A stretch of 64,000 bases of DNA, taken from positions 62,001-126,000 of the forward strand of contig NZ_JACVAC010000003.1 in the NCBI RefSeq assembly GCF_014851685.1, given 5' to 3'. The position numbers and the translations under genes are program-made. The stretch comes from Pseudomonas sp. PDM05. Its GTDB lineage: Bacteria; Pseudomonadota; Gammaproteobacteria; Pseudomonadales; Pseudomonadaceae. Of the stretch, positions 18,708-56,737 are shown piece after piece. The notes under the pieces were generated by a model that was not told where the DNA came from, ran no database searches, and saw only the letters and a list, made by a program, of their open reading frames with translations. The number at the start of each line of letters is the position of its first letter. Position 1 is the first letter of the stretch.

Positions 18708-18765
18708 GAAAACCCCTGCATTGTGAGCCTTGAAATGAGATCTGGAACATGTGGAAGGCGCGCTG

Positions 18766-18872
18766 TGTGGGAGCGGGCTTGCTCGCGAACGCGGTGTATC
18801 AGCCACCGAATGTATTGGCTGACACTCCGCGTTCGCGAGCAAGCCCGCTCCCACACAAGCCCGCTCCCACAG
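18766..18872. repeat. REP-type inverted repeat, class A, with an extra half unit
   Basis: TGTGGGAGCGGGCTTGCTCG at 18766 and its mirror ending at 18855, followed by a second partial arm AAGCCCGCTCCCACA (18857-18871). The inner part also pairs (GCGGTGT...ACTCCGC), making a long stem. It lies just after the lsfA stop. Confidence 0.9.
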
Positions 18873-18882
18873 GGTTGCTGTG

Positions 18883-19521
18883 TTAACGATTGGGCTGAGG
18901 GGTCAGGCGCAGGTACGGCTTCACGGCACGGTATCCCTTGGGAAAGCGCTTCTTGATCTCGTCCTCATCCTTGAGCGACGGCACGATCACCACTTCATCA
19001 CCGTCCTGCCAGTTGGCCGGCGTGGCGACTTTGTAGTTGTCGGTCAGCTGCAACGAGTCGATCACCCGCAAGATCTCGTGGAAGTTACGCCCGGTGCTGG
19101 CCGGATAGGTGATGGTCAGGCGAATCTTCTTGTTCGGGTCGATCACGAACAGCGAACGCACGGTGAGGGTGTCACTGGCATTCGGGTGGATCAGGTCGTA
19201 CAGGTCCGAGACCTTGCGGTCGGCGTCCGCCAGGATCGGAAAGTTGACGATGGTGTTCTGGGTTTCGTTGATGTCTTCGATCCACTTGTGGTGCGAATCC
19301 ACCGGGTCGACCGACAGGGCGATGGCCTTGACGCCGCGCTTGGCGAATTCATCCTTGAGCTTGGCGGTGAAGCCCAGCTCGGTGGTGCACACCGGAGTGA
19401 AGTCCGCCGGATGGGAAAACAACACCCCCCAGCTGTCGCCCAGCCATTCGTGGAAACGAATCTTGCCGGCGCTGGAATCCTGTTCGAAGTCGGGGGCGAT
19501 GTCGCCCAGTCTTAGGCTCAT
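18883..19521 (-). CDS. lsfA: 1-Cys peroxiredoxin LsfA (Prx6 family)
   Basis: A 212-residue peroxiredoxin of the Prx6 type: peroxidatic cysteine C45 in SHPADFTPVCTTE, with the long C-terminal Prx6 extension (PANWQDGDEVVIVPS) and no conserved resolving cysteine position. LsfA reduces hydrogen peroxide and organic peroxides and was first seen in P. putida as a low-sulfur-induced protein. It lies upstream of the ssu operon, on the same strand, consistent with joint sulfur-starvation control. AGGAG lies nine bases before the ATG. Another AT-rich palindrome is found upstream (19586-19601). Confidence 0.95.
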   Translation of the reverse strand: MSLRLGDIAPDFEQDSSAGKIRFHEWLGDSWGVLFSHPADFTPVCTTELGFTAKLKDEFAKRGVKAIALSVDPVDSHHKWIEDINETQNTIVNFPILADADRKVSDLYDLIHPNASDTLTVRSLFVIDPNKKIRLTITYPASTGRNFHEILRVIDSLQLTDNYKVATPANWQDGDEVVIVPSLKDEDEIKKRFPKGYRAVKPYLRLTPQPNR

Positions 19522-19585
19522 GATATGGCTCCTGGTGAGTGCTTATGGAGCCTACTGTGCATGGGTTGCAGATTATTTAAAAAGA

Positions 19586-19601
19586 ATAAATATCGATTTA
19601 T
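19586..19601 (-). promoter_or_regulatory. AT-rich palindrome upstream of lsfA
   Basis: ATAAAT, ATCG, ATTTAT: perfect 6-bp arms, 65-80 bp before the lsfA start. It shares the ATTTAT half with the palindrome before ssuE, which suggests one regulator for both promoters. Confidence 0.45.
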
Positions 19602-19757
19602 CTAGACGATAAAGGAATATTAAAAATGTGTTCATTGGACGCGGCAATGCGCGAGGCGCACCATCGTTTCCAAGGTTCGAGAAGGCCTTGAGACGCTGTA
19701 CAAAGAGGGGTTCAGGAAGGGCTTGCGGGGGTTTGGCCCGACTTGAAAGGCAAGACA

Positions 19758-19784
19758 CCTTGCCCGGCGTTGCGCCGGGCAAGG
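19758..19784 (-). terminator. Probable terminator downstream of the porin gene
   Basis: CCTTGCCCGGCG is perfectly mirrored by CGCCGGGCAAGG around a three-base loop. It begins 14 bases beyond the porin stop. The minus-strand tail (TGTCTTGCC) is a weak T-run, so termination may be partial. Confidence 0.7.
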
Positions 19785-19798
19785 TTTTACAAACAGTC

Positions 19799-25972: not shown

Positions 25973-26078
25973 TGTGAGAGCGGGCTTGTGTGGGAGCGGG
26001 CTTGCTCGCGAAAGCGGTGGGTCAGTTAGCTGATTTCTGACTGGCACACCGCATTCGCGAGCAAGCCCGCTCCCACAG
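25973..26078. repeat. REP-type inverted repeat, class A, with an extra half unit
   Basis: A partial arm TGTGAGAGCGGGCTTG (25973-25988) is followed at once by the full arm TGTGGGAGCGGGCTTGCTCG; the mirror ends at 26078. It lies between the convergent CYTH/CHAD and Lrp-type genes. Confidence 0.9.
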
Positions 26079-34487: not shown

Positions 34488-36104
34488 CTAGCCGATTTGC
34501 CGAGCAGAGCGCCGGATCAGCCCGATCACCGGCAACAGGCCGACCAACACCAGCGTCAGGGCCGGCAACGACGCCCGCGCCCACTCGCCTTCGCTGGTCA
34601 TTTCAAAGATCCGAACGGCCAGAGTGTCCCAGCCGAACGGACGCATCAGCAGGGTCGCGGGCATTTCCTTGAGCACATCGACGAACACCAGCAACGCCGC
34701 ACTCAACGTCCCCGGTAGCAGCAACGGCAGATACACTTTGCAAAACAGTCGTGGCCCGCTCACGCCAAGACTGCGCGCCGCTTCCGGCAACGAGGGTCGG
34801 ATTCGCGCCAGGCTGTTTTCCAGCGGCCCGTAGGCGACCGCCAAAAAGCGCACCAGATACGCCAGCACCAGCGCCGACAGGCTGCCCAGCAGCAACGGCT
34901 TGCCCGCACCGCCCAGCCAGCCCGACAACGGCACCACCAGCTCACGGTCCAGGTAGCTGAACGCCAACATGATCGACACCGCCAGCACCGAGCCCGGCAA
35001 GGCGTAGCCGACGTTGGCCAGGCTGATGCCGGAGCGAATCGCCCGGGTAGGCGCCAGCCGGTTGGCGAACGCCAGCACCAGCGCCACACTGACGGTCATC
35101 AGCGCAGCGATACCGCCCAGGTAGAGCGTATGCACGATCAGGCCCGAATAACGCTCATCCCAGTCGAAGCGACCGCGCTGCCAGAACCAGGCGACCAGTT
35201 GCAGCATCGGGATGACAAACGCGCAGGCAAACACCAACCCACACCAACTGCTGGCTGCCGCCGCCTTGAGCCCACGCAGGTGATACAGCGCCTTGCCCCG
35301 TGGCCGCTCGTTGCTCGGCCGGCTGGCGCCCCGGGCACGGCGCTCGCCGTACAGCACCAGCATCACCACCAACAGCAACAGGCTGGCCAGTTGCGCCGCA
35401 CTCGACAGGCTGAAAAAACCGTACCAGGTCTTGTAGATGGCGGTGGTAAAGGTATCGAAGTTGAACACCGAGACCGCGCCGAAATCCGCCAGCGTTTCCA
35501 TCAGCGCCAACGCCACGCCGGCACCAATCGCCGGCCGCGCCATGGGCAACGCCACGCGCCAGAACGCTTGCCACGGTGACTGCCCCAACACCCGCGCCGC
35601 TTCCATCAGGCCCTTGCCCTGGGCGAGGAACGCGGTGCGCGCCAGTAGATAGACATAGGGATAGAACACCAGCACCAATACGGTGATCACGCCGCTGGTG
35701 GAACGCACGCGTGGAAGGCGCAGGCCGGTGCCGAACCACTCGCGCAGCAGGGTTTGCACCGGCCCGGAAAAATCCAGCAGGCCGACAAACACAAACGCCA
35801 GTACATAGGCCGGAATGGCGAAGGGCAGCATCAGCGCCCAATCCAGCCAGCGCCGCCCGGGGAATTCGCACAGGCTGGTCAGCCAGGCCAGGCTGACCCC
35901 AAGCAGGGTCACACCGACGCCGACGCCCAGCACCAGAGTCAGGGTGTTGCCCAGCAGGCGCGGCATCTGGGTTTCCCAGAGGTGGGACCAGATCTGCACA
36001 TCGATACTCTGCCACGACAGCAACAGCACGCTCAGCGGCAGCAGCACCAGGGCGGCGACGGTGAAAACCGGCAGGTACCAGCGGCGTTGGGCGGGGTGGG
36101 CCAA
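34488..36104 (-). CDS. Ferric iron ABC transporter permease (FbpB-like)
   Basis: A 538-residue double-length permease with about 12 spans and two coupling loops: LMEAARVLGQSPWQAFWRVA (about residue 180) and LPEAARSLGVSGPRLFCKVY (about 450). This fused architecture is that of FbpB/HitB/SfuB ferric transporters. The start codon is TTG at 36104 (MAHPAQRRWY); no ATG is available in frame upstream. The binding protein gene lies upstream, separated by a long hairpin repeat. No ATPase gene is next to it, so it must use an ATPase encoded elsewhere. Confidence 0.9.
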   Translation of the reverse strand: MAHPAQRRWYLPVFTVAALVLLPLSVLLLSWQSIDVQIWSHLWETQMPRLLGNTLTLVLGVGVGVTLLGVSLAWLTSLCEFPGRRWLDWALMLPFAIPAYVLAFVFVGLLDFSGPVQTLLREWFGTGLRLPRVRSTSGVITVLVLVFYPYVYLLARTAFLAQGKGLMEAARVLGQSPWQAFWRVALPMARPAIGAGVALALMETLADFGAVSVFNFDTFTTAIYKTWYGFFSLSSAAQLASLLLLVVMLVLYGERRARGASRPSNERPRGKALYHLRGLKAAAASSWCGLVFACAFVIPMLQLVAWFWQRGRFDWDERYSGLIVHTLYLGGIAALMTVSVALVLAFANRLAPTRAIRSGISLANVGYALPGSVLAVSIMLAFSYLDRELVVPLSGWLGGAGKPLLLGSLSALVLAYLVRFLAVAYGPLENSLARIRPSLPEAARSLGVSGPRLFCKVYLPLLLPGTLSAALLVFVDVLKEMPATLLMRPFGWDTLAVRIFEMTSEGEWARASLPALTLVLVGLLPVIGLIRRSARQIG

Positions 36105-36151
36105 GGAAAAGCTCTCGGAATAATGAAGAATTTGAAGTCGCCGCTAACCAA

Positions 36152-36255
36152 TGTGGGAGCTGGCTTGCCTGCGATAGCATCACCTCGGTATCACTGATAC
36201 ACCGAGGTGATGCTATCGCAGGCAAGCCAGCTCCCACACAAACCAGCTCTCACAT
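36152..36255. repeat. REP-type inverted repeat, class B, with a 38-bp perfect stem
   Basis: Positions 36152-36189 are perfectly complementary to 36201-36238 with an 11-base loop. The outer part is the class B arm (TGTGGGAGCTGGCTTGCCTG...), and the inner part adds GCGATAGCATCACCTCGGT. A partial, degenerate arm (AACCAGCTCTCACA) follows to 36255. It lies between the iron-binding protein and permease genes, inside the likely operon. Confidence 0.95.
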
Positions 36256-36284
36256 TCAGGACTGCGGTGCCTGGCAGATTGTAC

Positions 36285-37289
36285 TTAGTTCCAGCCAGCG
36301 CGATCCATCAGGCGGATCGCCTCGGCCTGACGCTTGCCCGCCACTTCCACCGGCAAGGTGTCCGCCACGAACTTGCCCCAGGTCGCCACTTCCGCCGACG
36401 GCGGCACTGCCGGGTTGGCCGGGAATTCCTGGTTCACGTCGGCGAAGATCTTCTGCGCCTCAGGCGTGGTCATCCACTCGACCAAGGCCTTGGCGGCTTC
36501 CGGGTGCGGCGCGTGCTTGGTCAGGCCGATGCCCGACAGGTTCACATGCACGCCGCGGTCGCCCTGGTTCGGCCAGAACAGCTTCACCGCCAGCTTCGGG
36601 TTCTGCTTGTGCAGGCGCCCGTAGTAATAGGTGTTGACGATGCCCACGTCGCATTGCCCGGCGTTGATCGCTTCGAGTACGGCGATGTCATCGGAGAACA
36701 CGTCGGTGGACAGGTTGTTGACCCAACCCTTGACGATTTCTTCGGTCTTGGCCGCGCCATGGGTTTCGATCAGGGTGGCGGTCAGCGACTGGTTGTAGAC
36801 CTTCTTCGCGGTGCGCAGGCACAGGCGGCCTTCCCACTGCTTGTCGGCCAGGGCTTCGTAGGTAGTCAGGTCACCCGGTTTCACCCGGTCAGTGGAATAG
36901 GCGATGGTACGGGCACGCAGGCTCAGGCCAGTCCAGGCGTGGGTGGAGGAGCGATACTGCAGGGGGATGTTCTTGTCGATCACCGGCGAGGTGAACGGTT
37001 GCAGGATGCCCATTTGCTCGGCCTGCCAGAGGTTGCCGGCATCGACGGTCAGCAGCAGGTCGGCGGTGGCGTTTTCGCCCTCGGCCTTGATGCGCTGCAT
37101 CAGCGGGGCTTCCTTGTCGGTGATGAACTTCACCTGCACACCGGTCTTCTGGGTGTAGGCGTCGAACACCGGCTTGATCAGTTCGTCGATGCGCGAGGAG
37201 TAGACCACCACTTCGTCGGCTGCCTGCACGATGGTGCTGCCGATCAGGGTGAGTGCCAGGGCAGTCAGGAGGCGCTTGGGTGCCAACAT
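36285..37289 (-). CDS. Periplasmic ferric iron-binding protein (FbpA-like)
   Basis: A 334-residue binding protein with signal peptide (1 to about 23, STIVQAADE) and [20 protein letters not shown] at the start, as in FbpA/FutA. The iron-binding tyrosines are likely those in [15 protein letters not shown] (about 208-222), the usual YY pair. It captures Fe3+ and passes it to the downstream permease. Upstream lies a palindrome (37319-37343) resembling a Fur site, consistent with iron repression. The gene is 180 bp from the permease gene, with the long hairpin between them. Confidence 0.92.
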
Positions 37290-37318
37290 GGGTGCGGTCT
37301 CTCATTTGCAAAAAGAGC

Positions 37319-37343
37319 GCAAATGATAAGGACTCACATTTGC
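37319..37343 (-). promoter_or_regulatory. Candidate Fur box upstream of the iron-binding protein gene
   Basis: GCAAATGATAAGG (37319-37331) then ACTCACATTTGC: the outer GCAAATG/CATTTGC pair is perfect and the inner ATGATAA...TCACAT follows the known Fur pattern. It lies 30-54 bp before the start codon. A third CATTTGC at 37303-37309 also pairs with the left half. Confidence 0.68.
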
Positions 37344-37409
37344 CGGCGCTTGCTGGAGGCGTTACCAGATGTTGCATGAGTAGGATTTATAGTGGGGCTG
37401 ACGGCCTCT

Positions 37410-37432
37410 TCGCAGGCAAGCCAGCTCCCACA
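37410..37432. repeat. Single class B REP arm
   Basis: TCGCAGGCAAGCCAGCTCCC then ACA, with no matching second arm nearby. It lies 19 bp past the end of the ubiI gene, where most full elements of this window also sit. Confidence 0.8.
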
Positions 37433-37450
37433 GGGGACCGCGTTTCAAGC

Positions 37451-55825: not shown

Positions 55826-55941
55826 ACCGCTCCCCTTGGAATCATCTATCAGAACGTCATGCTCTGAATGCGTACGATCGATCCGGCTGGCGGGCGGTGG
55901 CGGTCAGTTGTTGGTGTTTGGCAGAACGTCGGTAGTCCGTT

Positions 55942-55961
55942 GTCTTATATCTTAATAAGAC
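55942..55961. promoter_or_regulatory. Palindrome between the TonB receptor and small barrel genes
   Basis: GTCTTAT, ATCTTA, ATAAGAC: perfect 7-bp arms, 117-136 bp before the receptor start. It resembles the AT-rich TTAT/ATAA palindromes before ssuE and lsfA. Confidence 0.45.
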
Positions 55962-56110
55962 TTTTCCTACATTTAAAAGACCTTAAATGCATAAGCATAG
56001 GCGGTCATACTTTCAGCCCACGTTCAGGCCAGGTCGGGCGCTAGCCGTCAAACTACAGGGATTAAGCGACCCCACTAGCCGCCCATCCAAACGACTACCG
56101 AGGTCGGATC

Positions 56111-56587: not shown

Positions 56588-56608
56588 CCCTGACACGACA
56601 CAACCCAA

Positions 56609-56713
56609 TGTGGGACCGGGCTTGTGTGGGAGCGGGCTTGCTCGCGAAAGCGGTGGATCAGTCAAAACACCTTTGGCTGACACACCGCTTTCGCGAGCAA
56701 GCCCGCTCCCACA
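56609..56713. repeat. REP-type inverted repeat, class A, with an extra half unit
   Basis: A partial arm TGTGGGACCGGGCTTG (56609-56624) abuts the full arm TGTGGGAGCGGGCTTGCTCG; the mirror ends at 56713. The middle also pairs (CGAAAGCGGTG...CACCGCTTTCG). It lies between the convergent small barrel and reductase genes. Confidence 0.92.
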
Positions 56714-56737
56714 TTTTGATCGGTGTAGGCCAGTTAT

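Follow-up and report, generated by a model that had tools for sequence, protein, structure and literature searches.

Within the window, i.e., the whole analyzed 64-kb stretch of DNA from Pseudomonas sp. PDM05, a long hairpin lies between two transport genes that are read in minus direction. The gene of a ferric-iron ABC transporter substrate-binding protein (36285-37289, minus strand) is upstream of the hairpin in the transcript, and the gene of an ABC transporter permease (34488-36104, minus strand, with a TTG start in the list of open reading frames) follows downstream. The transporter is labeled 'iron' because the binding protein matches the solved relatives 7li0 (E-value 1.2e-112), 2pt1 and 1q35 (FbpA); no NCBIfam model scored above its cut-off for either the binding protein or the permease. 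An inverted-repeat search reports two arms of 38 nt each (36152-36189 and 36201-36238) that are 100% complementary and enclose 11 nt, with 46 nt between the stop codon and the arms. Arm identity, loop length and the placement between binding-protein and permease genes thus agree with what a preliminary description of this DNA had stated. Folded as RNA, the 180-nt intergenic gap reaches -102.5 kcal/mol compared to a mean of -55.7 kcal/mol for shuffled sequences (z -10.5), none of which (0/200) folds equally well or better. Since a few extra bases pair inside and outside of the 38-bp arms, the predicted stem comprises 41 pairs. The length of the perfect arms together with these fold statistics rules out a chance inverted repeat.

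An intrinsic terminator can be dismissed, i.e., a scan of positions 36000-36400 (limited in loop and stem size) yields 0 terminator-like sites, and no T run follows either arm. Promoter-like sites were not found in the same range. Nor does the hairpin represent a known RNA family: all 10 Rfam matches up to an E-value of 1 stay under the gathering scores, and 8 of them are microRNA models, which any long hairpin can fit.

With regard to its composition, the hairpin consists of two inverted REPs with a short spacer that fold onto each other. Such pairs of inverted REPs forming hairpins in extragenic space are known as REPINs from Pseudomonas fluorescens (Bertels and Rainey 2011, PMC3116915). The outer part of both arms shows 0 mismatches to GTGGGAGCTGGCTTGCCTGCGAT, the PF12 consensus (PMC3686654, Table 1). 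As a REPIN, the hairpin belongs to PF12, an already described REP class. A PF12/PF13-type REPIN pattern finds 62 elements in the genome; extragenic placement was examined for the window copy, which sits between two ORFs. Two ORFs score above the cut-off of NF047646 (REP_Tyr_transpos) and are the two RAYT genes that we recognize with this one Pfam model. One of them (L020) is surrounded by PF9 REPs; near the other (L019), none of the three REP classes looked for was found at up to 6 mismatches. A PF12-flanked RAYT was thus not seen at the two RAYT loci of the genome. PF9, PF12 and PF13 elements have been reported together in one genome that holds a RAYT of only one class (Nunvar 2013, PMC3686654). 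PF12 elements without a RAYT of their own fit this published pattern, such that the missing PF12-flanked RAYT bears on the activity of the elements and not on their class.

Members of the subfamily are asymmetric. That is, one arm (A) reads GATAGCATCACC while the other (B) reads GATGCAGACACC or GATGCAGGCACC; the A arm can be recognized by the marker GATAGCAT, the B arm by GATGCAG, and the usual element has one of each. The window copy is A-type on both sides. Its permease-side arm (36152-36189, plus strand) joins an outer PF12 REP (36152-36175) to an inner A-type segment (36173-36189). The binding-protein-side arm (36201-36238, minus strand) has its inner A-type segment at 36201-36217 and its outer PF12 REP at 36215-36238. 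Within the permease-side arm, the five-base block AGCAT (36176-36180, plus strand) stands where A/B relatives at this site show a B-arm reading (GCAGA/GCAGG type).

To quantify the asymmetry, we used strict A/B, A/A and B/B patterns that leave out variant elements. In 42 Pseudomonas genomes they match 86 A/B elements (forward and reverse columns summed), 6 A/A and 1 B/B. The 42 genomes are the 41 best locus matches, own genome included, plus G302, which was added for its A/A elements; they include all five genomes in which the strict A/A pattern, run on 398 genomes, has its 6 matches. The counts support the view that perfect arms are not the default of the subfamily and point to a discrete event. 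The A/A to B/B relation of 6 to 1 in the 42 genomes also makes the A arm seem favored when arms are equalized, given small numbers.

The preliminary description had considered the inner sequence GATAGCATCACCTCGGT to be shared by no other copy. This holds within the 64-kb window, where no other copy exists at up to 4 substitutions, but not genome-wide: 18 places match within one mismatch, 7 of them exactly, two of which are the arms of the hairpin itself. A private inner sequence is dismissed by these 18 places; the same inner sequence in many elements is also what the description itself had named, on the sequence side, as speaking against its claim. It had further proposed a genome search for copies with mirrored inner arms, and here the window hairpin does stand out. 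Among the 50 REPIN cores listed out of 62, GATAGCATCACCTCGGT on both sides is peculiar to it. Its mirrored run inward from the REP core spans 28 nt, the next longest among the 50 listed cores 22 nt; 18 of the listed cores are 67 nt long, and in the 17 besides the window copy the run does not exceed 15 nt.

We also studied the hairpin gap (36105-36284) in related genomes, where it could be excised in 78 of 80 named loci. A recognized REP is held by 49/78, with PF1/2, PF4, PF7, PF9, PF12, PF13, PF18, PF20 and PF22 as best classes; here and below, the class test allows up to 4 mismatches to ten consensus REPs and misses REPs with indels. For the 41 best-ranked loci, a REP is found in 33 of the 40 resolved gaps. 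A fold of at most -45 kcal/mol per 100 nt is reached by 55 of the 78 resolved named relatives; some have hairpins of further families, and a few gaps are almost hairpin-free (L084 -6.1, L078 -10.5 kcal/mol). The nearest sampled relative (L051, 96.0% identity in the gene) shows a PF9 REPIN at the site. In the gap of Pseudomonas sp. JAI120 (L054), long G and C runs with Ns are found where relatives have a REPIN, which makes an assembly problem at the hairpin probable.

Besides the window, 15 distinct gap sequences hold an element of the subfamily (at least 26/39 consensus matches). Read in operon direction, 14 of the 15 distinct elements have the A arm on the left (A-loop-B'), and a single one (L122, P. 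proteolytica) is inverted. Compared with L115, L041 and L044 at the same gap, the interior of the L122 element is fully inverted between conserved outer arms, apparently by an inversion in place. The loop ATCACTGATAC occurs exactly in four of the 15, i.e., in L025 (gap identical to L061, P. lactis), L027 (gap identical to L064, P. paracarnis), L075 (P. simiae) and L087 (P. cedrina). The window loop (36190-36200, plus strand) is, in operon direction, the reverse complement of the loop of these four distinct orthologous elements: it matches ATCACTGATAC at 4/11 positions as read and at 11/11 when inverted. Among the 86 A/B elements of the 42 genomes, only 6 carry the window loop.

The binding-protein-side arm is abutted by a truncated REP remnant of 16 nt (36239-36254, minus strand; 2 substitutions from TGTGGGAGCTGGCTTG), which is missing from the aligned gaps of L022, L075, L087 and L061. 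Such 16-nt fragments (TGTGGGAGCNGGCTTG), cut just after CTTG and abutting a complete REPIN, are found in the window at 36239-36254, 622-637, 18856-18871, 25973-25988 and 56609-56624. A search of six genomes (G000, G302, G048, G261, G059, G219) with up to 2 mismatches reports the arrangement at 98 places in the own genome, 126 in G302 and 12-30 in the four others, while a reversed-pattern control yields 0 places. L041 and L115 have fragments of another class on both sides, which looks as though the inner part of an older REPIN had given way to a new one. Furthermore, there are collapsed REPINs with the interior gone, whose outer arms meet as one short hairpin (L196, L213, L214, L222, L223, L229-L232, L240, L261, L268); REPINs may thus decay by deletion across the hairpin.

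Three A/A elements from other loci have A/B orthologues with the flanks in place. First, G263 (A/A) and G238 (A/B) share 92.7% identity over 3.2 kb; within the element, the differences are the five-base block, a single base in the loop and two in the left outer arm, at which the A/B copy G238 is decayed. Behind the element lies a 15-nt indel. Second, G302 (A/A) and G000 (A/B) are 92.3% identical over 3.2 kb, and their elements differ in the five-base block and at a single position of that outer arm, each time toward complementarity. Third, the A/A element of G059 was compared with its A/B orthologues in G261, G179 (both aligned) and G140 (read outside of the alignment). The same block is changed and the outer arm is still B-type; 6 of the 11 loop positions differ from the A/B orthologues, although the loop is no clean copy, and so do single outer bases. 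In the A/A elements L143, L144 and L145, an A inner part is enclosed by B-type outer sequence, and the arms concerned are therefore to be read as overwritten B arms. Comparing orthologues of A/A elements other than the window copy thus shows a change from imperfect to perfect arms by multi-base complementary replacement, with loop inversion absent from all three; for the window copy, the related elements at its site would agree with such a change. The polarity of the change leans on the A/B norm, since the comparison was made without a tree and a single partner is available in two of the three cases; for G059, it is also backed by the three orthologues.

We consider it probable that the window hairpin got its perfect 38-bp arms and its flipped loop when the A arm was copied over the B arm at this site, i.e., by an inter-strand template switch during replication. 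While replicating, the new strand would copy the A arm, switch to the complementary strand at the common CACCTCGGT/ACCGAGGTG part, copy loop and A arm backwards and switch back within the identical outer arm. A single such event would yield both the perfect arms and the flipped loop. We thus infer that the permease-side arm (36152-36189) was once a B arm with AGCAT (36176-36180) as its overwritten sequence, and that the binding-protein-side arm (36201-36238) was the donor. The template switch is favored by the A/B norm, the A/B-A/A orthologues, the inverted window loop in four of the 15 site elements and the inversion of L122. Homogenization of arms along with spacer inversion by template switching has been described for yeast genes (PMC8604942) and RNA genes (PMC8794818), and for E. 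coli, the correction of quasipalindromes is an established process (PMC7202029). Recent formation or active maintenance of the hairpin, for example by a REP-type transposase, had been suggested in the preliminary description. A discrete event is in line with the counts of 86 A/B, 6 A/A and 1 B/B, but a need for the transposase is not supported, as each of the three A/A elements is matched by an A/B orthologue in an unchanged position between retained flanks. Read this way, the locus offers a sequence-level account, with orthologues from before and after the change, of how members of a very common family of bacterial repeats may acquire long perfect hairpins with neither transposase nor selection.

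Against the template switch speak the PF9 REPIN in L051, the class turnover at the gap, the remnant missing in four relatives, the lack of loop inversion in the orthologous pairs and the 6 to 1 excess of A/A over B/B. Given the remnant, the turnover and the PF9 element, a fresh insertion in opposite orientation is possible, i.e., a PF12 REPIN newly placed into an older REP remnant, whose B arm was then corrected to A within the hairpin while the loop was kept as it was. The remnant at 36239-36254 directly abuts the element and is missing in the four aligned relatives, abutting remnants are common (98 genomic places at up to 2 mismatches), REP classes do change at the gap, and the orthologous pairs show just such a correction without loop inversion. 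The newcomer would, however, need to carry by chance the loop of four elements at the very same site; since only 6/86 A/B elements have this loop, a random newcomer would seldom match. Moreover, no PF12-flanked RAYT was seen in the genome. We regard the insertion as the less likely of the two.

The template switch takes the partner arm as the source of the copied sequence. The A arm may instead stem from another REPIN copy via ectopic recombination or gene conversion. A arms are all alike in the block, many of them exist elsewhere in the genome, and the title of a 1988 review (cited in PMC12306157) already asks whether REPs evolve by gene conversion. Yet, an ectopic exchange requires an inverted partner and a short tract that ends inside the same element, whereas the partner arm is the nearer template with the same sequence, which renders the ectopic source improbable.

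To judge what the persistence of the hairpin means, other gaps were compared in the same way. In a control REPIN gap between same-strand genes (C1), a REP is present in 23 of 30 genomes, and in one between convergent genes (C2) in 21 of 25 resolved loci (30 tried), with varying class in both. Where G048 and G059 carry their A/A elements, a REP is present in 24/28 and 18/29 loci, with the L143 and L144 sites resolved in 28/29 and 29/30. For two REP-free gaps of the window (19522-19798 and 55826-56110), the numbers are 0/30 and 0/9 resolved (9 of 30 loci resolved for the latter), summing to 0/39; both are no matched controls since they are upstream of genes and probably bear promoters. The gap upstream of the binding-protein gene (37290-37450), which has a single PF12 REP in the window, shows a REP in 29 of 77 resolved loci (80 tried) and is thereby clearly below the REPIN sites. 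All these counts were taken without a tree from relatives that are not independent, and loci with poor anchors or contig ends were left out. They indicate that REPIN sites tend to retain a REP hairpin while the class shifts, be it within the operon or outside.

These comparisons bear on a further alternative to the template switch, i.e., that selection at the mRNA level keeps the hairpin perfect because the two genes depend on it for their expression ratio. The location between binding protein and permease, the strong fold without a terminator-like site, and the REP or strong hairpin in most resolved named relatives (49/78 and 55/78) would fit. But the gap between convergent genes retains REP hairpins as strongly (21/25), several relatives have no strong hairpin at the gap (L084, L078), and the site mostly holds imperfect hairpins of A/B type, all of which makes such selection very improbable. 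Since REP hairpins are as persistent between convergent genes, persistence is no evidence for a ratio-setting role, and the persistence of this hairpin in its operon should not be taken as evidence of regulation. Operon-specific maintenance as the cause of persistence is not supported by the controls C1 (23/30) and C2 (21/25). Finally, ordinary family variation with simply common symmetric inner arms can be set aside almost entirely: the inner segment is indeed common family sequence and listed cores of other lengths mirror up to 22 nt, but 86/93 strict subfamily elements are A/B and 17/18 listed 67-nt cores have a mirrored run of at most 15 nt.

A change of class with the REP hairpin retained is observed at the window gaps 36105-36284, 18728-18887 and 56588-56734 with their orthologous gaps, and at the L143 and L144 sites. 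For one site, the PF12 REPIN of G048 and the PF9 REPIN of G261 are each next to the same abutting remnant, and the adjoining flank is 97% identical. We tentatively propose, as a doubtful generalization, that REPIN sites persist as fixed addresses while what they hold is rewritten in place. Switching of the template within and between hairpin arms would homogenize arms, flip loops and perhaps swap the REP class, such that hairpins stay for long without cognate transposase or selection on their sequence, and would provide a route for the 'orthoswitch'. Behind the in-place overwriting are the A/B-A/A orthologues, the G048/G261 class swap and five REPIN sites at which a REP is retained but its class varies, versus 0/39 resolved at the REP-free, promoter-type gaps. 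Should REP classes generally change at fixed positions, this would have a bearing on how one class comes to replace another. Class change at fixed sites among relatives is also more novel than the hairpin, whose type and proposed mechanism are known.

Within an mRNA, the 41-pair stem could slow 3'-to-5' decay, to the benefit of the binding-protein message upstream relative to that of the permease. We consider this a possible role, if somewhat short of a probable one; what is known of it comes from position and predicted fold, and by analogy. In the malE-REP-malF arrangement of E. coli, a REP hairpin between binding-protein and permease genes reportedly favors the upstream message. There as here, the REP hairpin separates the genes of a binding protein and a permease, but REP family and transporter are different. 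The preliminary description had the hairpin probably set the ratio of the two genes, which is plausible by this analogy. As part of an mRNA, REP hairpins shield it from exonucleases, and many E. coli REPs are able to stall ribosomes just before the stop codon (PMC12306157).

Both the type of hairpin and the proposed mechanism are already known from elsewhere. The searched literature, with most subscription journals outside of it, holds no work that joins REPINs and template switching, which is weak evidence that homogenization of REPIN arms is not yet in print. PMC3161906 reportedly treats REP sequences and template switching in rearrangements of E. coli. In the text of PMC3116915, template switching has 0 occurrences.

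Compared to the PF12 class, orthogroup IV, of Nunvar 2013 (PMC3686654), the outer arm GTGGGAGCTGGCTTGCCTGCGAT is identical, and the coexistence of PF9, PF12 and PF13 with a RAYT of one class is likewise found. In that study, new classes spread and old ones decay ('orthoswitch', mechanism unknown), while its available part does not mention class change at one orthologous position. With quasipalindrome template switching (PMC7202029, PMC8604942, PMC8794818), our case has in common that one arm would template its partner to give a perfect inverted repeat and that an inter-strand switch would invert the loop. Those cases concern reporters, yeast genes and RNA genes, whereas here a mobile repeat is affected and the event is deduced from orthologues. 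Finally, the REPINs of Pseudomonas fluorescens (PMC3116915) are alike in being inverted REP pairs, and compensatory changes on both sides are common there. In contrast, the REP of the window is PF12, its subfamily is asymmetric by default, and the window copy is fully symmetric with a flipped loop.
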